Shown here: one piece after another, positions 3,905 to 20,057 of the stretch
Layout of the letters: every line of letters begins with the position of its first letter
Position numbering within the stretch: the stretch's first letter is position 1
Origin: a virus
Reading direction: 5' to 3' (one strand)
IMG/VR virus record: IMGVR_UViG_3300020457_000029
Location: 1-37,401 of that record
DNA length: 37,401 nt
Made by a program: the position numbers and the translations under genes
The notes under the pieces: generated by a model
What the model was told of the DNA's origin: nothing
The model's input: the letters and a program-made list of their open reading frames with translations, nothing else
Databases searched by the model: none

Positions 3905-4165
3905 ATGAAACAATTTTTATATATAGCTAGTTTAGCTATCTTATTATCATCTTGTGCAGGAGGACAATTATTTGTAGAAGCAAGGACTACATATAATGTT
4001 CCATTAAATGACAATGGTATATTAGATACTAACACATTAGAAACACAATATAATAATCATTCGGGTTTACAAAACTTACACCCTCAAATTAGACTTACTT
4101 ATAGACAATATATTTTTGATAAAAAAAGATATCCAAAAGCTAAACCTTATAAATTAAAAAAATAA
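3905..4165 (+). CDS. Putative phage lipoprotein, 86 aa
   Basis: The N-terminus MKQFLYIASLAILLSSCAGG is a type II (lipoprotein) signal peptide with lipobox LSSC; the lipidated Cys would be residue 17. The mature part is about 70 residues, polar and basic, with a C-terminal KAKPYKLKK. The product should be anchored in a membrane, most likely facing the periplasm or outside. Phage lipoproteins of this size expressed with early genes often block superinfection (T5 Llp is a precedent), but no sequence similarity to such a protein is evident. The gene ends 2 nt before nrdB. Confidence 0.75.
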   Translation: MKQFLYIASLAILLSSCAGGQLFVEARTTYNVPLNDNGILDTNTLETQYNNHSGLQNLHPQIRLTYRQYIFDKKRYPKAKPYKLKK

Positions 4166-6496: not shown

Positions 6497-6855
6497 AAAA
6501 AATTATATTAAGTTTAATTATAATGTTTTCAACACATGTATATTCTCAAACGCTAAGAGATTTTGAAGGCATTTGGAGCACTCCGGATTCATTTTTTTAT
6601 AAAATGTTTACATACAATGAAGAAGATGAAATATTAGAAGTACATTCTTTTAGTTTTGGTTCAGATGCCGCTGTAGTAGAAAAAATTACCAAAATAAAAA
6701 ATAATACAGTCTATACTAAATCATATAACTATGACAATAAATGGAAAACAAAAATACAATATACTTTTATAGAAAATAAATTATATGCGGTATATTCAGG
6801 AGATATCGATACTTCTTGTATCTATACTAAAGCAACTTTAATACTTAATGAATAA
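6493..6855 (+). CDS. Secreted hypothetical protein, 120 aa
   Basis: The N-terminus MKKIILSLIIMFSTHVYSQ is a clean Sec signal peptide with likely cleavage before or at the Gln, a pattern common in Bacteroidota. The mature protein (about 100 residues) begins TLRDFEGIWSTPDSFFYKMF. It appears to be a small beta barrel: alternating strands such as NTVYTKSYNYDNKWKTKI and TFIENKLYAVY resemble lipocalin or calycin-like folds, though no fold can be proven by eye. It should act in the periplasm or outside. It overlaps nrdA by 8 nt, so its translation is probably coupled. Confidence 0.65.
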   Translation: MKKIILSLIIMFSTHVYSQTLRDFEGIWSTPDSFFYKMFTYNEEDEILEVHSFSFGSDAAVVEKITKIKNNTVYTKSYNYDNKWKTKIQYTFIENKLYAVYSGDIDTSCIYTKATLILNE

Positions 6856-8575
6856 TATGTGGAACAATAATTGGATAAAAGGAGAAGATTATCCTTCTTG
6901 GGGTAATAATGAAATTTACAAACAAACTATAACTGGTGGTTATTTATTACCAAATGAAACTCCTCGTGAAGCATATAAAAGAGTTGCTAAAACTATTGCT
7001 AAACGTTTATATAAACCTGAATTAGCTGATAGATTTTTTGAATATATTTGGAATGGTTGGCTTTGTTTAGCTTCTCCAGTGTTATCTAATACAGGTACAG
7101 ATAGAGGTTTACCTATAAGTTGTTTTGGAATTGATGTTGCAGATAGTATAAATGATATAGGCCAAAAGAATTTAGAAATGATGATGTTAGCAAAACACGG
7201 TGGTGGTGTAGGAATAGGTGTGAATATGATTAGGCCTTCAGGAGCTAAAATTACAGGTAATGGAACTTCAGATGGTGTAGTACCGTTTTGTAAAATATAT
7301 GATTCTACTATATTAGCAACAAATCAAGGTAGTGTTAGACGGGGAGCAGCTTCAGTTAATATAAATATAGAACATCCCGATTTTTTAGAGTGGTTAGAAA
7401 TTAGAGAACCTAAAGGTGATATCAATAGACAATCATTAAATTTACATCAGTGTGCTGTTGTAGGTGATAAATTTATGAGAAGATTAGAAGCAGGAGATAC
7501 AGTATCAAGAAAAAAATGGAGTAAACTGTTACAAAAAAGAAAAGCTACTGGAGAGCCTTATATACTATTTAAAGGTAATACCAACAAAGCTAACCCATCT
7601 GCCTATAAAGATAATGCTTTAAAAGTTCACATGACCAATATATGTAGCGAAATAGTTTTACATACAGACGAGTCACATAGTTTTGTTTGTTGTTTATCTA
7701 GCTTAAATCTAGCTAAATATGATGAATGGAAAAACACTAATATTATTTATGATTCTATATGGTTTTTAGATGGTGTATTAGAAGAGTTTATACAAAGAGC
7801 TAAATATAGAAAAGGTTTTGAAAATTCAGTAAGATCTGCAGAAAAAGGTAGGGCATTAGGATTAGGAGTTTTAGGTTGGCATACTTATTTACAAGAAAAA
7901 GGATTACCGTTTGAAGGATTACTTGCTCAATTTGAAACTAGAAAAATATTTAGTCAAATCAAAATAGAATCTGAAAGAGCTAGTATGGAACTTGCTGAAA
8001 TATATGGTGAACCTTTGTGGTGTAAAGGAACTGGTATGCGTAACACTCATTTAAGAGCTATAGCCCCAACGGTAAGTAATTCTAAGCTATCTGGTAATGT
8101 ATCACCAGGCATTGAACCATGGGCAGCTAATGTGTTTACAGAACAATCTGCTAAAGGAACTTTTATTAGAAAAAATCCTACACTAGTTAAACTTTTAAGA
8201 AAACATAAATTAAATACAAATGAAATTTGGGATAAAATTTTGGCGGATGGTGGTTCAGTGCAAGCCATTAATGAACTTGATTCTGTGGTTCTTGCTAACG
8301 ACATACCAGCTAAAGACGTTTTTAAAACGTTTAAAGAAATAAATCAATTAGAGTTAGTTAATCAAGCTGGTTTAAGACAACAATATATAGATCAATCAGT
8401 AAGTTTAAATCTTGCTTTTCCATCAGAAGCTCCACCTAAATGGATAAATAAAGTTCATATAGATGCTTGGAAAAAAGGGGTTAAAACGCTTTATTATATG
8501 AGAACTGAATCTGTATTAAGAGGTGATATTGCGGCGCAAGCAATGGATCCAGGTTGTGTTAGCTGTGATGGATAA
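6848..8575 (+). CDS. nrdA: Ribonucleoside-diphosphate reductase, alpha (catalytic) subunit
   Basis: The 575-aa protein carries the complete class I active site. C92 (PISCFG) and C281 (FVCCLSSLNL) form the redox pair, N264/C266/E268 (NICSEI) contain the thiyl-radical Cys, a YY pair (TLYYMRTES) is the radical relay, and a C-terminal CxxC (C570/C573) is the reducing tail. The loop KHGGGVGIGVN is the substrate-binding glycine region. It is about 190 residues shorter than E. coli NrdA (761 aa) and has no N-terminal ATP-cone, so the dATP off-switch is probably absent from this subunit, as is common in phage enzymes. It is the last gene of the + arm, ending just before the convergent terminator hairpin. 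Confidence 0.97.
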   Translation: MNNMWNNNWIKGEDYPSWGNNEIYKQTITGGYLLPNETPREAYKRVAKTIAKRLYKPELADRFFEYIWNGWLCLASPVLSNTGTDRGLPISCFGIDVADSINDIGQKNLEMMMLAKHGGGVGIGVNMIRPSGAKITGNGTSDGVVPFCKIYDSTILATNQGSVRRGAASVNINIEHPDFLEWLEIREPKGDINRQSLNLHQCAVVGDKFMRRLEAGDTVSRKKWSKLLQKRKATGEPYILFKGNTNKANPSAYKDNALKVHMTNICSEIVLHTDESHSFVCCLSSLNLAKYDEWKNTNIIYDSIWFLDGVLEEFIQRAKYRKGFENSVRSAEKGRALGLGVLGWHTYLQEKGLPFEGLLAQFETRKIFSQIKIESERASMELAEIYGEPLWCKGTGMRNTHLRAIAPTVSNSKLSGNVSPGIEPWAANVFTEQSAKGTFIRKNPTLVKLLRKHKLNTNEIWDKILADGGSVQAINELDSVVLANDIPAKDVFKTFKEINQLELVNQAGLRQQYIDQSVSLNLAFPSEAPPKWINKVHIDAWKKGVKTLYYMRTESVLRGDIAAQAMDPGCVSCDG

Positions 8576-8612: not shown

Positions 8613-8660
8613 GGAACTTTGGGGTGTGGAGCCCATTTTATCGTGTTCCCTTTTATTTAA
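8613..8660 (+). terminator. Possible weak terminator for the + strand arm
   Basis: GGAAC (8613-8617) can pair with GTTCC (8645-8649), with an inner TGGG/CCCA pairing, and a T-rich run CTTTTATTTAAT follows. This would stop + strand transcription before it enters the endolysin gene antisense. The stem is short and the loop long, so this is tentative. Confidence 0.4.
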
Positions 8661-9010
8661 TAAGTCCAGACTACATCAGGATCTTTATCAGGATCCATAT
8701 CTACATGTATAAAAGTATTTCCTATACCTATCCTAGTAAATCCTACATCTAATAAACAATTTAGAAGATCATACCTGTCTCTTGAATTTATACAATGAAT
8801 ATCAACTGCTAAACCTTTAAGATGAGAGGAATTCTTTTTTCCCCCAACCTTTTTATTGTGTTCTTTCGTTCGATAACCACTGTTTATATGGATTGCTCTA
8901 TCAAACTTAGATCGTACTAGATCTATTTTATCTAGCATTTCTTGTTTCATATTTCTTCCACTACCCATTTCATCGGGTGAATCAAACTCGGTAATGTTAA
9001 AGTATTGCAT
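8657..9010 (-). CDS. M15-family peptidase (endolysin, cell-wall hydrolase)
   Basis: The 117-aa protein has the M15 D-Ala-D-Ala/L,D-peptidase zinc site: H63 and D70 in SSHLKGLAVDIH (HxxGxAxD), and H102 in FIHVDMD. SGYRT near residue 45 is the usual substrate-loop motif. It should cut peptide cross-links in peptidoglycan at the end of infection. It has no signal peptide or membrane segment, so it needs a holin for access. Its ATG overlaps the stop of the 25-codon ORF upstream (TAATG), and a two-TM holin-like gene lies just beyond, forming a lysis cassette at the end of the late arm. Confidence 0.9.
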   Translation of the reverse strand: MQYFNITEFDSPDEMGSGRNMKQEMLDKIDLVRSKFDRAIHINSGYRTKEHNKKVGGKKNSSHLKGLAVDIHCINSRDRYDLLNCLLDVGFTRIGIGNTFIHVDMDPDKDPDVVWTY

Positions 9011-9087
9011 TATTTGTATTTTTTAAACATTAGTTTATACAATAGCGCATTCCACGCTGCTTGTAGTTTATCTATAAATTTTTTCAT
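9010..9087 (-). CDS. 25-aa cationic amphipathic peptide in the lysis cassette
   Basis: This ORF lies between the holin-like and endolysin genes. The peptide begins MKKFIDKLQAAW and ends LMFKKYK. It has seven Lys and one Asp (net about +6), and its hydrophobic residues (F4, I5, L8, A11, W12, L15, L16, L19, M20, F21) fall mostly on one face of a helix. The ATG starts 1 nt after the holin-like stop, with AAAGGA ending 7 nt upstream, one of the few Shine-Dalgarno-like sites here, although it also encodes the end of the preceding protein. The stop overlaps the endolysin ATG (TAATG). It could be a membrane-active lysis peptide or only a coupling leader peptide. Confidence 0.6.
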   Translation of the reverse strand: MKKFIDKLQAAWNALLYKLMFKKYK

Positions 9088-9088
9088 A

Positions 9089-9508
9089 TTATTTTCCTTT
9101 ACACTTACAGTTGTTTTCTCCACAAACACAATCTTTGTCTTTATTATATATAGTATCAAATGCGTTTGCGCCTAACAATGTTAATTGATCTATCATGTTT
9201 GTTTGAATTTTAATAAGCATTTTTTCTAGTTCATCTTTTTGTGTGACAAGATGATCTACTTTAGAGGTTAAACCTTCATTTTGTTTTTTAAGTTCATTGA
9301 CTTCGTCCGGGTTTCTACCTATAACTGTCATTATAACAACCGATAAAGACCCAACTATCATTCCTATTATAGATACCACCACGTCTTTATTCATGTTGGG
9401 TATTTCATTATATGATAAGAAAACTAGTATACCTATTACTAATAAAAATATACCAATCGCTCCAACATAATGTCTTAATTCTTTGGCTACGCCATTTGCT
9501 ATTTTCAT
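9089..9508 (-). CDS. Holin-like protein, two membrane segments plus coiled coil
   Basis: The 139-aa protein has two transmembrane helices (about 13-32 and 44-64) joined by a short loop. A helical coiled-coil stretch follows (about 68-103), and then a C-terminal CxCxxxxCxC cluster (Cys 127, 129, 134, 136) that could bind a metal or form disulfides. Two TMs, small size and position directly before the endolysin suggest a holin or holin/spanin-like lysis factor. The long coiled coil and Cys cluster are unusual for a holin, so a different envelope role is possible. Confidence 0.65.
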   Translation of the reverse strand: MKIANGVAKELRHYVGAIGIFLLVIGILVFLSYNEIPNMNKDVVVSIIGMIVGSLSVVIMTVIGRNPDEVNELKKQNEGLTSKVDHLVTQKDELEKMLIKIQTNMIDQLTLLGANAFDTIYNKDKDCVCGENNCKCKGK

Positions 9509-12500
9509 TTAAAATCTTTTTTTAGGTTTCTTTTTTGTTTTTTTCTTTTTCTTTTTAACTGATTTAATTTTAGGTTTTTCTTTTTTAACACCTAATTCCC
9601 AGTCAGACCATCCAGCAAGCATAGCAATCCTAGCCCATGCTTCGTAATCTGAACTACTGGCTTTTCTTATATTGTCAATTTTTTTAAACGCCCTATCAAG
9701 TGGAACATTTGTAGTTGCAGCTATCACTTGACCCGCTGCTAAGTATGCAGGATTATCTAATGAAAATCCTTTTTCTATTATTTCTTTTTTATTCCAAGAA
9801 TAAGCTCTACCTGCTGCTCTTAATTTACTTAATTTAGAAGATACAGGAGGAGATAATTGTGCTATTTCTTTAGTTAATACATCTTGAAATTTAGGTGATT
9901 TTTTCTGTGCTTCTCTATTTAATTTAATTGCTGTATTTTTTAATACTGAAAATATAGCACCACCTACACCAGCACCTCTTAGTATACTATCTGCCATAGA
10001 ATTAACTATATTAGCATATTTTTCTTCTCTTTTTTCTGTTTCTTCTTCTTCATCTCCAAAGCCCATAGCGAATAAAGCCTGTTGCATAGCGTTGAAAAAT
10101 AGATTTTGTACAAATCCATAATACAATATCTTAGATATATTGGTTATTGTATCTCCTCGGCCATTCTTAAGATCACTAGCGGCTTTTTTAATCAATCTAG
10201 TGTATTGCATTGGAGTGTTAGCAAAAGCTAATATAACGCGTCCTAATGGCCCAGCTTGCTGCATACTAATTCTATCAGGTCGACTTGACTGTTGAGCTTC
10301 TTCTGCTATTTCTCTAAAATCTATAAAAGCTTGGTTCTCTGCTTCAGATTTAGACATACCTTCTTTAGTATACTTTTTAACTCTATTTCTATAAAATGTA
10401 GAACCGCCAGATGCGATAGCAAAACTATCTGCTATTTGTGTAGGTAAAAATCCTATTCTAAGCATTTCACTTATAACTCCTCTTACCCCACCTTTTTTAG
10501 CCATATCAGCTATATCAGCTTCATTAACATTTAATCTTAATCCGTTTCTTCTATCTACTAAAAAATCACTATTAAAAAGTGTAATAAAATCTTTCCAAAA
10601 TTGAGGCTGATTTGCAAATGCTTTACCAGCAGCAAACAAATTGTTATCTTTAAAATTTATAAAGTTAACAGCTGATATAGTTTGAAGAACAGCTGATCTT
10701 GTATTAAAAAACATTATAGCGCCAATAGAATTAGTTAACCAATCTGTTACTCTACCTGTTAAAGAATCAGAGGTAAATTCCCTGTTTCTACCAGTGCGCA
10801 TACGTTTTAATATATTTTCTAATGCGGTTCTATAATCTTTACCATAAGCAGCTTCAAGTTTATTTAAATTAGGTTTTGTAAATATTTGGTCTACATTATA
10901 CTGCCATTGTTCTAAATATTTAGCTCTTTTAATAGTATTAATACCATCTATTAAATCTGTTGTAATGTTTCCAGCTAACCAACCAAATTTAGGTGCAGGA
11001 TAACTATCTCCTTTTTGTAATGCTATTAATTGATCAGCAAATATAACTAATTCAGGTTTGCTTTCAACAAAGTCTGTAAGTTCTTTTATATCTTTTTTAG
11101 ACATACCCTCTGGGGTCATACCTTGTTTATTCCAAATATAAGTTCTTATCGCTTGTTCTTGAGTAAATGGTTCACCAGGTAATTTTTTCTTTAAATTTTT
11201 AGGAACTATTTTTAAATCTTTTTTAAGAGCTTTAAAATCATTCATAAGAGCTATTCTATCTCTTGATATATTATCCATAGCCCTAGCAAAAGGATCTAAT
11301 AAATGTTTTTTATACCAAGCCATTTGAGAATCCCCTAACTTTCCTTTACCTAAAGTTTTATATAACAATCCTACAAAATCTTCAGCAGATGGCGGTACAA
11401 AGAAATTAAATCTTCCTTTATTTGCCCCTACTACTTGAGCTTTAACATCAGAATAAACTTTATCAGCCCCAATACCAGTTTTATTTTCTATTATATCATT
11501 AAAATCTTTATTTAAATCTATAGACTTACTAAATTTCATTTGATCTATTAACTGTTCTTTATCTAGTTCAGCCATTTCATCTAATACCATTTGATTAGTA
11601 TAATCTCCTTTAAGTCTAACAACTAATGGTAAAGATTTATTATTAAATTTAGAAGCTTTAATTTTTGAATTTTCAATTGCTATAGTAGTAGGTTGTCCCG
11701 CCACATCAATTTTAAATTCTTCTGCAAAAGTTTTACCATTAACATTTATAATAGAAGAAGGTGGAATACCTCCATCAATTTTAGCAACTTCAGCATTAAA
11801 ATATCTTTGCCACCAAAAGTTTTTGCCTAATTGCCATCCTTTAGGCATACCTCTTCCTAATTTAGCTTTTCCTAATTTAGCATTTTCAGCTTTATCTAAT
11901 GCTATTAATTTATAATTATCCATAACAGCATCATAAGCAGGTTTAAAATTATCTCTCCGTAACGATACATCTAATAAATACATATAAGATGCAGTGGCAG
12001 GCATTGCATGCTCGTACTCATATAAAGTTGTTTTACCTTCTTTATTAGTTGTTCCTTTAGGTTTTATAGAATAACCCACAAAATTAGCACCTTGTTTATG
12101 CCAATGCTTTGTATCATTAGCAGTTATTCTTAAATAAGTAGCAATAGCTGGCGCACTTTTATTTTTAGTATCTCTAATAGATTTATCTAATCTTTCCCAT
12201 AAAACTTTATGTATTAAAGACACTTTAGTATTAAACTTTTTTATTTCTCCATTTAGTATATTTTTTCTAATATTAGATGGAGTATTAAATAAAGTTTTAT
12301 AACTTTTTATTTTAAATAATTCTACATCTGCTTTTTTAGATATAATAGGTTTTCCAAACGCATTATTAGGTAAATAATTAGGACTTTTAGGATCATTTAA
12401 AGATTTTACTTGATTAACAAAATATTCCCAAACAGGGTTTTTTCTAGCTACACGTTTACCATCAATTTTATCATATATAGTTTTGCCATTTTTATCTTTT

Positions 12501-15500
12501 AAAGAACCAAATTTTGTTCCTAGTATTTTACTACTACCGGTGTAAGCTGTGCCTCCACTAGGTCCAAAAAAAGCAATTCTAGGCATGGTAGGAAACATAT
12601 ATTTAATTTGATTATCAATCCATGATTTAACTTGCGCTTTAGACTTATTATTAAGTTCATTAATTGTAATAGTAGATACTGGATTTAAACTATAATTATT
12701 TAATAATGCATCTACCCCTTTAACGTCTAGATCAAAATTAGCATTATTAAGAATATCTTGAGTACCTTCGCTGATACTAAATTTTAAGCTTGGATCTCTA
12801 TCTATTTGTTTACCTATTTTAGCTTCATCTGTTTTGGTTACTTTTTTATCTTGAAGTTTAGTAATAGCTTCACGTTTAGTTTTTACTTCAGGTTCTTTTA
12901 TAACCTCCATAGTAGCGTCTAGAGCCATAATTTCTCCCAGAGTTTCAGCTAAAGCATCTTTACGTGTGCCTTTAGTAGATGTACCTACTTTTGGACCTAA
13001 GAAGTAATCTACAAACTCTTGTTTATCAATAGATCTTTTCTTAAATATTTTTTTACCTTCAGGGGTTTTTTCTCTTTGCCCCGTATCTTCTGCAAATTGT
13101 CTAAATCTTTTATTTAAAATATCTTGAGGTAGAGCTTTATATATAGATTCAAAATTATCTTCTAAGAATTTTTTATAATTTTCTCTAGTACCTAATAATT
13201 CTGCTAAAGGAGTTTTAAGTTCTGTTCTATAAGCTTTTTGTAATGCTTGTTTAAATTCTTTAGATTCTATTTCTGGTAATTTAGTACCAAAGGTTTTTCT
13301 AACAGTTTGTTTAACTTTGTCAATAAGCGGTTTGTCTATTTTAAGATCTCTTCTTAGTTTTGATCTAATAGATTTTTCTTGTGTAGGTGTAGGTGCTTCT
13401 TCAACAGCAACGCCTCTAGCTTCAGCTACATCAGCTTCAAATACATCTTTAGTTGCAGCTTCACCTTTTTTAAATACATTACCAATTTTATTTTGTAATT
13501 GAGAATTAATCCAACCAGATAAACTATTATTTTGCTCAGGATTAAAATTTCTAATATGAGGAATAAGTTCTGCTATAGTACCACTTACAAAATCTTCTTG
13601 AGAAAATCCAGGGGGTTTTTCTCTAGGTATTTTACTTTTAATTAATCCTTGTAAACGCTCGTATGAATTTACAATTGCTTGATCCGCTTTTCCACCATCC
13701 CATTCAGCTTTTGTTAAAGTATATTTACCATCAGTTTTAGGTCCTACAAGCGCATCTATATCCGTAGATGAAACGGATTGTTTTTGAGTAAAAGAAGTAT
13801 CATCTTTAAGTTTTTTAATTCCATCTTTACCTCTTATAACTTCAAAACCTTCAACAGCCCCTTCTTTTATAGCTTTACCTAATTGACCTTTATCTAAAGA
13901 AGCATTATAATCAGATATAAAATTTATAACATCTTTTCCATCTTTAAATTTTATTTTTTTCCAACCTAAATTTTGAAATAATCTTCTAAAAAAAGTATTA
14001 AATCTTTGTATTGCGTTCTCGTTTAAAGATATAGCACCTAACCTTAAAGCGTCAGATAAAATTGTAAGTTTTTCTTCTGCTTGCATTGTTTTACCTTGAT
14101 CTTTATAAGATTTAAACCTTTGTTTTAAATATTCGTTTTTTAGTATACTAGGATCTATTTTATTTAATTGTTTATCTAATTCAATTCCTAGGGAACGAGC
14201 TACATTTGTTCCTTCTAATTTTCCTTCTTTATTTTTTTTATATAATGTATTAAACAAAACCCTATGAAGCAGTTCATGACCAGCTACGTTAAATGCTTTA
14301 ACTTTTTTAGCTTGTTCTAAATCAATAATAATAGTTTTATTATCAGGACTAGTTACACCTTCCGATCTTTGTCCTTTTTTATCTTGCATAACCATATCAT
14401 TCTCTGCAGCCAACTTATCAGCTTGTTTGCTAGTTTTAGCAACTAATACGTTTTCTCCAACACCTTCTTTTTGGGCCATATCAACGGTTCGTGTTATATA
14501 TGCATCTTCGGCAATTTGTCCTAATTGTTTATTAATAGATTCAAATTGATCTTTAATACTTTGCGGAACCATGCTTTGATCTACATTTTCAAACTGTCTA
14601 TTAAGATCTTCTTTTTTAATTAAAAGTTGTAAAGCTTTTTCTCTTTGTTCTACAGTATAATCTTTAGGTATTGAATTTAAAGCGTTTCTTACTTGGCCTA
14701 ATGATTTTAAACGATTATTTACAGTTTCAGGATTTAATCTTCCATCTGTTTTTATTTTTGTTTCTAATAATTTAAAACTTTTTTCTAACTGACCCAATTT
14801 TCCTTCTGATCCTAATGCACCAGCTATCTTCATAGCAGCTTGTTTTGTTTCAACCGCAGTTTGTGTAACCCCTACTTTTAAAGATGAAATTCCACCACCA
14901 ACTAAAGCACCCTGACTAGCTTGTTCTCTTAACTCTTTTAAATCAAATCTATTTTCATCAGTCACAACAGACTCACCTAGTTGACTCAATCCTCCTTGTA
15001 AACCTTCTGTTAATGCTTCTAACAAAGAAGCTTCAGTAACAGCTTTTCCAGAATTTAATAAAGATTGAGCGGCTATTTTAAATTCGCCTCTTACTATAGA
15101 ACCGATAGGTTTTTTAAGATCAACTTTTAAAATTTTTCCTGCACTTATTTTTTCTAAATAACCCGCAACTGCCCCTGTGGCTATTGCTACACCCGCTTCA
15201 TCTTCACCATTATTAATAACACTCATTAATTGTTCTGGAGTAGGCTGTTCATTTTCAGGTATGTTAAACTTTTGCCTAGTTATTGCGTTTAAATTTGTTA
15301 TATAATTTCCTCCAATTTCTTGTGCCATAACACCTACTCCTCCTGCTACTAAAGCTAAACCTAATTGAGGTAATTGTTCTCCTGCAATTCCACCTAATTC
15401 TTTTAATGTAAGATCAACACCACCATCATCTTCCCATATTTTGTTTTCAGTAAATAATTGTAAATCTTTATCTATATCTTGAATATCTGTAATAGTTTCA

Positions 15501-16612
15501 AACTGCTCTTCTTTTCTTTCACCAATAGCATCATTAAGTAATTTTATAGTTTTACCAACAGTGATATTTGGATCTTTTATATAACCCTGCATCATTTTTT
15601 TTATTTCAACAGGAGTTTTATCATTAAGATTTATTTCACCTTCTTCCAATTGTTTTTCAAGACTATTTATGGCTTTTGTAGCTCTGGTTGTTCTACCAAA
15701 AGCTTGATCAGGTCCCATTAATTCAATACCATAAAGCGACTGAATAACTTGTTTGCCAAACTTTTGAAGCCCTTCAACAACAGAATTATCGCTTATACCT
15801 TTGTAAATAATCTGATCAGTAAAAGGTATTTTAAATTCTACTTCTAATCTCCCCTTTTGTCTTTGTATTTGAGCTAATTCACTTCCAATAGAACTAGTAA
15901 CTTTATTATTTATAGCTTGTAAAATAGCTTGATATGAAGAATCATTTTCTGCCATTAATTCTGCAGCATCAGCTCTTTGATCGTTATAATCTTGATTAGC
16001 TTCTTCTAAAGTTTCAGCACTAACATTAGGATCGTTTAAATTATATTTTTCTATAATTTGATCTCTAATACTTCCTTTAGATTCAAAAAATTGATCTACT
16101 TTATTTAATATTTTTTTATTTTTAAAATTTAAATATTTATTATTTTTTATTAAATCATCCTGAATATAAATAGCTTTATCTTTAAAACTACCTATAGAAT
16201 CTTTATCATCAATTGGTTCATCAGCTGTTAGTTTATTCCATCCTTCTATTGCTGTAATATAATTTTCTTCTAAATCTTTTTTTCCTAAATCTGTAAGTTG
16301 TTGTTTTTTTCCTTTTTCTACAATAAAAATACTTTCATTTCCATCTTTATCTTTTTCAATACGTTCATATACTTTTTCTGGAATTTCTTGAGTATCACTT
16401 AAATCGTCTTGAGTATAAGCTTCTATTAATCCGTTTGTTTCAGGAGGAGTGTAATCTTGTAAAAAATTATCAAAATCTCCAATATAATCTTCATTACTAA
16501 CTAACTCATTATATAAAGATTTATAATTATCCTCACCCCAATCATCTTCAAATTCTTGAAAGGTACCTGTGTAATCTCCTTCAGCAAGTAATAGATCGTA
16601 AAGTTCTTCCAT
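9509..16612 (-). CDS. Giant virion/ejection protein with zincin motif and LPD38-like region, 2367 aa
   Basis: Probably an internal virion protein injected with the DNA, in the place of T7 gp16 (1318 aa). N-terminus (1-54): two copies of a 'LY-LL...-DYTG-F-FE/L-D' motif. Residues 400-600: several Gly/Ala-rich hydrophobic stretches. Residues 779-783: HELLH, a zinc metalloprotease HExxH motif in NVAGHELLHRVLFN, with a candidate third ligand Glu near AEEKLTILSDAL (845-856). Residues 1000-1050: a segment like sigma-70 region 2. Residues about 1960-2190: long helices with FFNTRSAVLQTIS and LGRVILAFANTPMQY, resembling the LPD38 domain of large polyvalent proteins. The last 20 residues are nearly all Lys/Pro/Arg. 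It is 11 nt from the gp15-like gene. The role is inferred from size, order and domains. Confidence 0.8.
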   Translation of the reverse strand: MEELYDLLLAEGDYTGTFQEFEDDWGEDNYKSLYNELVSNEDYIGDFDNFLQDYTPPETNGLIEAYTQDDLSDTQEIPEKVYERIEKDKDGNESIFIVEKGKKQQLTDLGKKDLEENYITAIEGWNKLTADEPIDDKDSIGSFKDKAIYIQDDLIKNNKYLNFKNKKILNKVDQFFESKGSIRDQIIEKYNLNDPNVSAETLEEANQDYNDQRADAAELMAENDSSYQAILQAINNKVTSSIGSELAQIQRQKGRLEVEFKIPFTDQIIYKGISDNSVVEGLQKFGKQVIQSLYGIELMGPDQAFGRTTRATKAINSLEKQLEEGEINLNDKTPVEIKKMMQGYIKDPNITVGKTIKLLNDAIGERKEEQFETITDIQDIDKDLQLFTENKIWEDDGGVDLTLKELGGIAGEQLPQLGLALVAGGVGVMAQEIGGNYITNLNAITRQKFNIPENEQPTPEQLMSVINNGEDEAGVAIATGAVAGYLEKISAGKILKVDLKKPIGSIVRGEFKIAAQSLLNSGKAVTEASLLEALTEGLQGGLSQLGESVVTDENRFDLKELREQASQGALVGGGISSLKVGVTQTAVETKQAAMKIAGALGSEGKLGQLEKSFKLLETKIKTDGRLNPETVNNRLKSLGQVRNALNSIPKDYTVEQREKALQLLIKKEDLNRQFENVDQSMVPQSIKDQFESINKQLGQIAEDAYITRTVDMAQKEGVGENVLVAKTSKQADKLAAENDMVMQDKKGQRSEGVTSPDNKTIIIDLEQAKKVKAFNVAGHELLHRVLFNTLYKKNKEGKLEGTNVARSLGIELDKQLNKIDPSILKNEYLKQRFKSYKDQGKTMQAEEKLTILSDALRLGAISLNENAIQRFNTFFRRLFQNLGWKKIKFKDGKDVINFISDYNASLDKGQLGKAIKEGAVEGFEVIRGKDGIKKLKDDTSFTQKQSVSSTDIDALVGPKTDGKYTLTKAEWDGGKADQAIVNSYERLQGLIKSKIPREKPPGFSQEDFVSGTIAELIPHIRNFNPEQNNSLSGWINSQLQNKIGNVFKKGEAATKDVFEADVAEARGVAVEEAPTPTQEKSIRSKLRRDLKIDKPLIDKVKQTVRKTFGTKLPEIESKEFKQALQKAYRTELKTPLAELLGTRENYKKFLEDNFESIYKALPQDILNKRFRQFAEDTGQREKTPEGKKIFKKRSIDKQEFVDYFLGPKVGTSTKGTRKDALAETLGEIMALDATMEVIKEPEVKTKREAITKLQDKKVTKTDEAKIGKQIDRDPSLKFSISEGTQDILNNANFDLDVKGVDALLNNYSLNPVSTITINELNNKSKAQVKSWIDNQIKYMFPTMPRIAFFGPSGGTAYTGSSKILGTKFGSLKDKNGKTIYDKIDGKRVARKNPVWEYFVNQVKSLNDPKSPNYLPNNAFGKPIISKKADVELFKIKSYKTLFNTPSNIRKNILNGEIKKFNTKVSLIHKVLWERLDKSIRDTKNKSAPAIATYLRITANDTKHWHKQGANFVGYSIKPKGTTNKEGKTTLYEYEHAMPATASYMYLLDVSLRRDNFKPAYDAVMDNYKLIALDKAENAKLGKAKLGRGMPKGWQLGKNFWWQRYFNAEVAKIDGGIPPSSIINVNGKTFAEEFKIDVAGQPTTIAIENSKIKASKFNNKSLPLVVRLKGDYTNQMVLDEMAELDKEQLIDQMKFSKSIDLNKDFNDIIENKTGIGADKVYSDVKAQVVGANKGRFNFFVPPSAEDFVGLLYKTLGKGKLGDSQMAWYKKHLLDPFARAMDNISRDRIALMNDFKALKKDLKIVPKNLKKKLPGEPFTQEQAIRTYIWNKQGMTPEGMSKKDIKELTDFVESKPELVIFADQLIALQKGDSYPAPKFGWLAGNITTDLIDGINTIKRAKYLEQWQYNVDQIFTKPNLNKLEAAYGKDYRTALENILKRMRTGRNREFTSDSLTGRVTDWLTNSIGAIMFFNTRSAVLQTISAVNFINFKDNNLFAAGKAFANQPQFWKDFITLFNSDFLVDRRNGLRLNVNEADIADMAKKGGVRGVISEMLRIGFLPTQIADSFAIASGGSTFYRNRVKKYTKEGMSKSEAENQAFIDFREIAEEAQQSSRPDRISMQQAGPLGRVILAFANTPMQYTRLIKKAASDLKNGRGDTITNISKILYYGFVQNLFFNAMQQALFAMGFGDEEEETEKREEKYANIVNSMADSILRGAGVGGAIFSVLKNTAIKLNREAQKKSPKFQDVLTKEIAQLSPPVSSKLSKLRAAGRAYSWNKKEIIEKGFSLDNPAYLAAGQVIAATTNVPLDRAFKKIDNIRKASSSDYEAWARIAMLAGWSDWELGVKKEKPKIKSVKKKKKKTKKKPKKRF

Positions 16613-19416: not shown

Positions 19417-19764
19417 TTAATTTAATTTTAAAACTTTATCTATAGTTTTTATTACTTCTTCTTGTGTTATTTTTAATTTAAAAGATAAATCTGCAGTCCA
19501 TTGAAATTTAGTTTGACCACCTACTCTTAATACTACTATAGGTAAAGGTTGTCCAGCTACACTTTTTTTAAATTCTGGACCTTGATTTTCTAATAAAGCA
19601 TAATCAATGGATATTCTATATCCTTTATAATCTTTAGGAAATTTTAATTTTACATCATTACGGGTGTTCCACTCCGCATTTATTTGTAATAATTGGATTG
19701 GTGGATTTTGAATTGTTGTGCTTGTTAAAATTAATAGTAATATTAAAGTAAATATATATTTCAT
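19417..19764 (-). CDS. Secreted thioredoxin-fold-like protein without CxxC
   Basis: The N-terminus MKYIFTLILLLILTSTTIQ looks like a signal peptide or membrane anchor. The rest of the 115 aa follows thioredoxin: LLQINAEWNTRND aligns with VDFWAEWCGPC, and GQPLPIVVLRVGGQTKF aligns with RGIPTLLLFKNGE, the cis-Pro strand. A closing helix EEVIKTIDKVLKL follows. The active-site CxxC is replaced by NTRN, so no disulfide chemistry is expected. It overlaps the one-TM gene upstream as TAATG. A structural or envelope-interacting role in the ejection module is plausible. The fold call is by eye. Confidence 0.6.
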   Translation of the reverse strand: MKYIFTLILLLILTSTTIQNPPIQLLQINAEWNTRNDVKLKFPKDYKGYRISIDYALLENQGPEFKKSVAGQPLPIVVLRVGGQTKFQWTADLSFKLKITQEEVIKTIDKVLKLN

Positions 19765-20057
19765 TATCTTTTCTTTTTTGTATTGTTATTTAAATCATAC
19801 AATCTTTCTTCAATTTTATCTAGTTTATCTCCATTTTCGTTTACTTTGTCTTCGGTATTCATAATTGATTCACGAATTAATTCGTCTTTAAGATCATATT
19901 CGGTTCTTGATATAGGAGGTTCTGGAAGTTTCTTAGCTTCTTCTATATCGTCTTGTAGCGCAAACCACATACCTACTAATGTAAATATTGCTACTCCTAT
20001 GCCTATAAGTGTTTTTATACTTATGTTAAATTTTGTATCTTCGCTTAATTCTGCCAT
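19764..20057 (-). CDS. Single-pass membrane protein with coiled coil, 97 aa
   Basis: One transmembrane segment (about residues 15-35, TLIGIGVAIFTLVGMWFAL) is followed by an acidic helix, EEAKKLPEPP, and a charged coiled coil (about 55-95) ending KKKR. The topology could fit an i-spanin or a small holin, but its place among internal virion genes and the lack of a lipoprotein o-spanin partner argue against a firm assignment. Similar one-TM proteins occur in tail modules of marine phages as I recall. The gene's stop overlaps the next ATG (TAATG). Confidence 0.65.
   Translation of the reverse strand: MAELSEDTKFNISIKTLIGIGVAIFTLVGMWFALQDDIEEAKKLPEPPISRTEYDLKDELIRESIMNTEDKVNENGDKLDKIEERLYDLNNNTKKKR

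Follow-up and report, generated by a model that had tools for sequence, protein, structure and literature searches.

Leaderless amphipathic helices of 20–30 residues, among them delta-haemolysin, the phenol-soluble modulins, TisB and SpoVM, resemble the phage peptide described here in size and form, and the disruptin of phage phiKT, at 56 amino acids, is about twice its length. Disruptins are phage-encoded antimicrobial peptides that form short amphipathic helices and whose diversity hinders their prediction, and how spanin-less phages breach the outer membrane has been stated as an open question (PMC12819732). Spanins could not be identified in 13% of analysed genomes, Bacteroidetes phages included (PMC6139136), and the spanin-less Bacteroidetes phages on record comprise Croceibacter phages P2559S and P2559Y and Bacteroides phage B124-14 (PMC6139136, Table 10). 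In flavobacterial phage isolates, endolysins and transmembrane (TM) proteins have been described, and spanins in some (PMC8776804).

Set beside these systems, the peptide shares with the phiKT disruptin (Holt et al. 2022, J Bacteriol; as summarised in PMC12819732) a short, cationic and predicted helical sequence, a lysis setting and the lack of an evident adjacent spanin pair, and it differs, as far as a comparison with that description goes, in that its family carries a conserved residue-specific motif. With two-component spanins (Rz/Rz1) it has in common its proximity to a holin and an endolysin, and it would likewise act at the last lysis step, whereas it has only 25 residues and neither a transmembrane segment nor a lipobox. 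Like small holins (T7 type, Phage_holin_2_2), it is short and lies in the same gene block; unlike them, it is too hydrophilic for a transmembrane segment and coexists with a separate holin-like gene. From delta-haemolysin, the phenol-soluble modulins, TisB and SpoVM, to which its likeness is of a general kind, it differs in being phage-borne and in lying in a late gene block.

The window, by which we mean the whole stretch of DNA analysed, is an entire linear IMG/VR record (37,401 bp) in which the genes at either end are truncated, so that arguments from absence within it are weak. Its large terminase (TerL) groups with those of phages of Flavobacterium, Cellulophaga, Maribacter and Tenacibaculum, and on this placement the host is probably flavobacterial (Flavobacteriia; marine Flavobacteria). 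The features on which the comparison draws are the following.

9010..9087, minus strand: 25-codon gene of the conserved WN-x-L-[LM]-YKLMFK microprotein, MKKFIDKLQAAWNALLYKLMFKKYK (sequence, family conservation, helix model of a longer member)
8657..9010, minus strand: M15 peptidase endolysin, 117 aa (Pfam Peptidase_M15_3, E=2.8e-21; PHROG 894 endolysin, E=4.7e-28)
9089..9508, minus strand: holin-like protein, 139 aa, with two hydrophobic segments, a coiled-coil-like C-terminal part and a CxCGxxxCxC tail
9509..16612, minus strand: late-region protein, 2367 aa, family CL0 (sequence, neighbour clustering)
6848..8575, plus strand: gene which from its sequence we take to be ribonucleotide reductase-like, convergent with the lysis block (cluster CL3)
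19764..20057, minus strand: 97-aa protein with an N-terminal TM segment and a coiled-coil-like tail, an i-spanin-like topology (hydrophobicity scan)
3905..4165, plus strand: 86-aa lipoprotein with an LLSSC lipobox, an unlinked o-spanin-like candidate (lipobox scan)

The 139-aa protein gave only weak matches in Pfam and PHROG family searches, and its topology and position suggest the label holin-like; position likewise suggests that the 2367-aa protein is a virion protein. The Cys-rich CxCGxxxCxC tail at 9089-9160 is the C-terminus of the holin-like protein, and some longer variants of the peptide in other phages (L190, L240) also end in Cys-rich tails (EPCTKCTGDSKKCNCK).

On the minus strand, the peptide ORF runs from an ATG at 9087-9085 to a TAA at 9012-9010 (25 codons, 78 bp). 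The original prediction had placed it between two lysis genes, rightly so: a single base (9088) separates its ATG from the stop codon of the holin-like gene (TAA, 9091-9089), and its own stop shares one base, at 9010, with the endolysin ATG (TAATG). Such tight coupling to neighbouring genes is normal for copies of the peptide. The Shine-Dalgarno-like site that had been cited in support of the ORF is present as AAGGA 7 nt upstream, but it is encoded by the last codons of the holin-like gene, where it spells Lys-Gly, and it is not family-wide: SD-like 4-mers precede the peptide in 16 of 121 places, against a shuffle expectation of 7.6 and a maximum of 16 in 300 shuffles. The argument from this site is therefore weak. 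An ORF of 25 codons is by itself no evidence of a gene, and it is conservation that puts this one far above chance.

A survey of 58 distinct 25-codon copies, mostly supplied by a search with a core pattern, shows saturated synonymous sites (pS 0.82) next to a pN of 0.099, giving a pN/pS of 0.12 overall and of 0.075 in the core (residues 12-22). Frame conservation with a synonymous-site bias was the check that had been proposed for this ORF, and with a pN of 0.10 against saturated synonymous change it upholds a real gene below normal gene-calling length. Ten residues never change in the 58 sequences (D6, Q9, W12, N13, L15, Y17, K18, L19, F21 and Y24). Since the core pattern imposed W, N, Y, K, F and partly L, the evidence for these residues comes from scans that left them free, while D6, Q9 and Y24 were not imposed by it. 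A pattern made of only the last residues and the stop codon, with the first 16 residues left free, found 89 distinct places; WN stands exactly five residues upstream in all 89, and because neither residue was required, this supports the conservation of W and N independently. Conversely, an N-terminal DNA pattern run on viral contigs (M-K-K-[hydrophobic]2-x-K-[hydrophobic]-x3-W, with the YKLMF part left free) returned dozens of near-identical 25-mers ending in YKL[MT]F.

The close relatives L001-L003 retain the peptide, differing in 2-4 codons by synonymous changes and in the protein by K25R at most. Elsewhere, 22-24 of its 25 residues are identical, with 4-7 synonymous codon differences, where the endolysins of the same loci share only 29-36%, a discrepancy that suggests strong constraint together with probable exchange between phages. 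Because amino-acid constraint of this kind requires a translated product, we read the 78-bp ORF as a genuine, translated microprotein gene. That it is spurious, or serves translational coupling only, would agree with its sub-gene-calling length and its tight coupling to neighbours, yet this is scarcely credible given the pN/pS of 0.12, the saturated synonymous sites and a core that stays invariant in different contexts, and it is refuted as far as sequence can refute it.

Across the pattern scans the peptide family occupies at least 121 distinct places, nearly all of them in IMG/VR, plus four GTDB MAG contigs, and thus occurs in over a hundred uncultured phages. Its core reads WN-x-[LF]-[LM]-Y-K-L-[MT]-F-[KH]. 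Length variants of about 22-58 aa share this one core and differ at their N- and C-termini, and six columns (W, N, Y, K, L and F) are invariant when 20 of them are aligned. A search of 84,980 bacterial and archaeal genomes with the core pattern yielded the four MAG contigs only; the peptide is flanked there by the phage genes also seen around the other copies, and these contigs appear to be phage sequences that binning assigned to MAGs. Short pattern matches at L075, L086, L130, L136 and L154 were out-of-frame within larger genes and were discarded.

Scanning 2.6 Mb of fetched loci with a PSSM revealed no more divergent copies, and tblastn of two queries (the window peptide and a consensus variant) against the phage collection gave no match; in a local control the window peptide was unmasked and would score E ~4e-8, and the consensus variant was partly masked. 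There was also no match of the window peptide in Pfam or PHROGs, or of a family member among PDB sequences, comparisons in which queries this short (25 residues for the window peptide) have little power. Six phages of the phage collection that are related to the window phage by TerL, including five isolates whose host is named, lack the exact core pattern throughout their complete records, and no cultured carrier came out of an M15 search begun from a second lineage (below) or out of an inspection of Nonlabens phage P12024S. The literature searched by topic, with queries other than the motif itself, contained no description of the family, and we regard the WN microproteins as undescribed so far.

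The genes around the peptide vary considerably. Family CL0, that of the large late-region protein, provides the immediate upstream gene in 55 of 121 places and elsewhere is often among the three upstream genes, while the downstream neighbours are a 390-aa secreted protein, small secreted proteins or M15 endolysins. In about 40 places the peptide has the large late-region protein on one side and secreted proteins on the other; at one such locus read at length (L211), an M15 endolysin is found ~4.4 kb away. At L254 and L190/L240 the peptide adjoins structural-looking genes. The ribonucleotide reductase-like family CL3 (40 pieces in the cluster) comes after the block in many relatives. The 390-aa secreted protein (L223, L198, L231, L074 and others) follows the peptide in many phages of the group, either at once or after a short interval; it had no match in Pfam or PHROGs, and its C-terminus, read by eye, is beta-barrel-like, so it is a possible phage-encoded outer-membrane protein.

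Where both neighbours could be read, an immediate lysis neighbour (holin, holin-like protein, small TM protein, M15 endolysin or amidase) was present in 27 of 108 places and lacking in 81. Lysis genes are immediate neighbours of 23 of 93 peptides, compared with 17 among the 154 other genes in these blocks, a moderate enrichment in counts that are phylogenetically non-independent. The lysis arrangements themselves differ: holin-like protein, peptide and M15 endolysin in the lineage of the window; a small holin-like protein, peptide and M15 endolysin at eight loci of an apparently different lineage; endolysin, peptide and holin at L072; and peptide, holin-like protein and endolysin at L220. The small holin-like protein of the second lineage weakly matches T7-type holins (PHROG 920, E ~1e-4), and in several of its loci a further holin (PHROG 3427, E ~2e-12) follows the block. 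The idea that the neighbouring holin is the partner of the peptide was weakened, since those holins fall in different sequence clusters.

The frequency of CL0 upstream, the strongly basic character of the peptide and the small basic proteins encoded next to it in places would agree with a role in the virion or in packaging, as a small part that attaches to DNA or to the large late protein and is comparable to those basic neighbours. This reading is improbable: the second lineage keeps the holin-like/peptide/endolysin order without the large protein among the neighbours read, and the conserved W, L, M and F suggest a membrane- or protein-binding helix instead.

Presence of the peptide is patchy. 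Twelve relatives with the holin or the endolysin of the window lack it, in records that may be incomplete, and it is thus not universally required; at L004 nothing separates the holin from the endolysin, and at L045 and L047-L051 other genes fill the space between the two. The fillers at L045 and L047-L051 are small basic proteins, one matching DUF6321 and one weakly DUF5872. Directly upstream of the window endolysin's family, relatives mostly carry other microproteins of 25-51 aa with a single TM segment, whose best 17-residue Kyte-Doolittle means are ~2.1-3.4, as opposed to 0.55 in the window peptide. Most of L011-L032 have a membrane microprotein of 39-40 aa (like MIYLILATVFANMVYKAREYGRADIADLIIAIAALAIILF) that overlaps the start of the M15 endolysin.

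Extreme sequence constraint combined with patchy distribution, the varied accessory genes of the slot (the small DUF6321-like basic proteins among them) and the frequent adjacency to secreted proteins are what one would expect if a mobile late gene in a hypervariable slot encoded a host-takeover or superinfection-exclusion peptide, a helix binding and inhibiting a conserved host envelope protein in a role unrelated to lysis. Against this, holin and endolysin neighbours recur in different arrangements and the slot is also occupied by other short membrane proteins, and we consider a takeover or exclusion role rather unlikely.

The original prediction had called the peptide cationic and amphipathic. 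The charge is as described, +6 from seven K and one D, and is at least +4 in 94 of 94 family members; the amphipathicity, however, is modest, with a hydrophobic moment of 0.46 in the window peptide versus a shuffle mean of 0.32 (p = 0.12) and a median p of 0.02 across 94 family peptides. In the AF2 model of a naturally occurring 36-aa member, the chain forms a single continuous helix (mean pLDDT 84.6). Altogether, the short cationic amphipathic helix expected of a disruptin is found in the charge, in the helix model and in the family-wide median p, with the window peptide itself at p = 0.12, and the disruptin-like location with holin and endolysin is found in the window and in a minority of places overall, about one in four. 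With a best 17-residue mean of 0.55, the window peptide shows no TM segment of the kind expected of a holin or an i-spanin, and with no cysteine among its 25 residues it has no lipobox, as an o-spanin would. The polar-face residues D6, Q9, N13 and K18 are invariant, as fixed as the hydrophobic ones.

It had also been noted that no spanin pair is evident. A simple hydrophobicity and lipobox scan indeed detected an adjacent pair in neither the window nor its 70-kb relative G001, but both encode a single small lipoprotein and, far from it, a single coiled-coil-like protein with an N-terminal TM segment; in the window, an incomplete record, these lie at 3905-4165 and 19764-20057. The lipoprotein has a homologue in G001 at 9344-9637. 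The 97-aa protein had no spanin family match in Pfam or PHROG searches, and CL5 proteins, which are similar to it, lie downstream of the peptide in many phages. A lipobox scan for a complementary distribution of peptide and spanins found too few lipoproteins to tell.

These observations bear on the suggestion of a disruptin-like lysis factor, which survives in part. The peptide is real, cationic, helical in the AF2 model and placed beside varied holins and endolysins, while outer-membrane disruption is a conjecture against which residue-specific conservation on all faces, a lysis neighbour in only 27 of 108 places and absence from relatives with the holin or endolysin speak. A disruptin proper, in which the cationic helix would disrupt the outer membrane after holin and endolysin and so replace spanins, could account for the cationic helix, the lysis-cassette position and the lack of an adjacent spanin pair, and there is precedent both for spanin-less Bacteroidetes phages (PMC6139136) and for disruptins as short amphipathic-helix peptides (PMC12819732). 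In contrast, residue-specific conservation on every helix face, the unexceptional hydrophobic moment of the window peptide (p = 0.12), the patchy presence among relatives and the unlinked i-spanin-like and lipoprotein candidates all argue against a disruptin proper, which we hold to be doubtful, although it is partly counted within the explanation that we favour.

We favour a late, envelope-directed helix that assists lysis by means of a docking motif, with a probability of roughly one in two, given the invariance of the polar face, the unexceptional moment of the window peptide and the helix model. The peptide gene would be expressed within the late structural-lysis block, a timing suggested by gene position, and its product would be synthesised alongside the lysis proteins, with no signal sequence. 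The peptide may then fold into a cationic helix on a membrane, and its conserved core would dock on a particular host-envelope partner that is itself widely conserved, thereby helping the final lysis step; the periplasm or the outer membrane would be reached only once the holin opens the inner membrane. Variants of this scheme would be disruptin-type outer-membrane disruption, or assistance at the inner membrane or at another envelope target. Docking on a specific partner seems to fit the invariant D6, Q9, N13 and K18 better than generic membrane disruption, as charge and amphipathicity alone would not need such invariance.

Short cationic peptides of other kinds came from the same scan as the window family. 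One further short family, MKKIIQKIKDLWN[KR]F[IV][ND]W..G.[DN][KR] (L079, L082, L099, L102, L105, L116, L119 and related loci), is preceded by a TM protein and by a coiled-coil protein of 83 aa, in lysis modules whose endolysin is of the Amidase_2 type (contexts read in L066, L079, L082, L099 and L140), and has a C-terminus quite different from that of the window family. At L081, a 21-aa cationic peptide, MKKIIQKIKKFWKDLISKLEK, opens a module of a small TM coiled-coil protein, an M15 endolysin and a holin-like protein. With these two additional peptides in Amidase_2 and M15 lysis modules, short helices seem to be a repeated feature of phage lysis modules.

Being short, conserved, below gene-calling length and without Pfam or PHROG match, the WN peptide family readily suggests itself as a candidate for a new kind of peptide that acts in lysis or targets the envelope. 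More tentatively, many phages, some of them apparently unrelated, might share a sequence-specific lysis peptide of ~22-58 residues, as opposed to a generic membrane disruptor, that hits one conserved envelope component and thereby brings about or times lysis; the fixed sequence of the peptide makes the question of its target testable.
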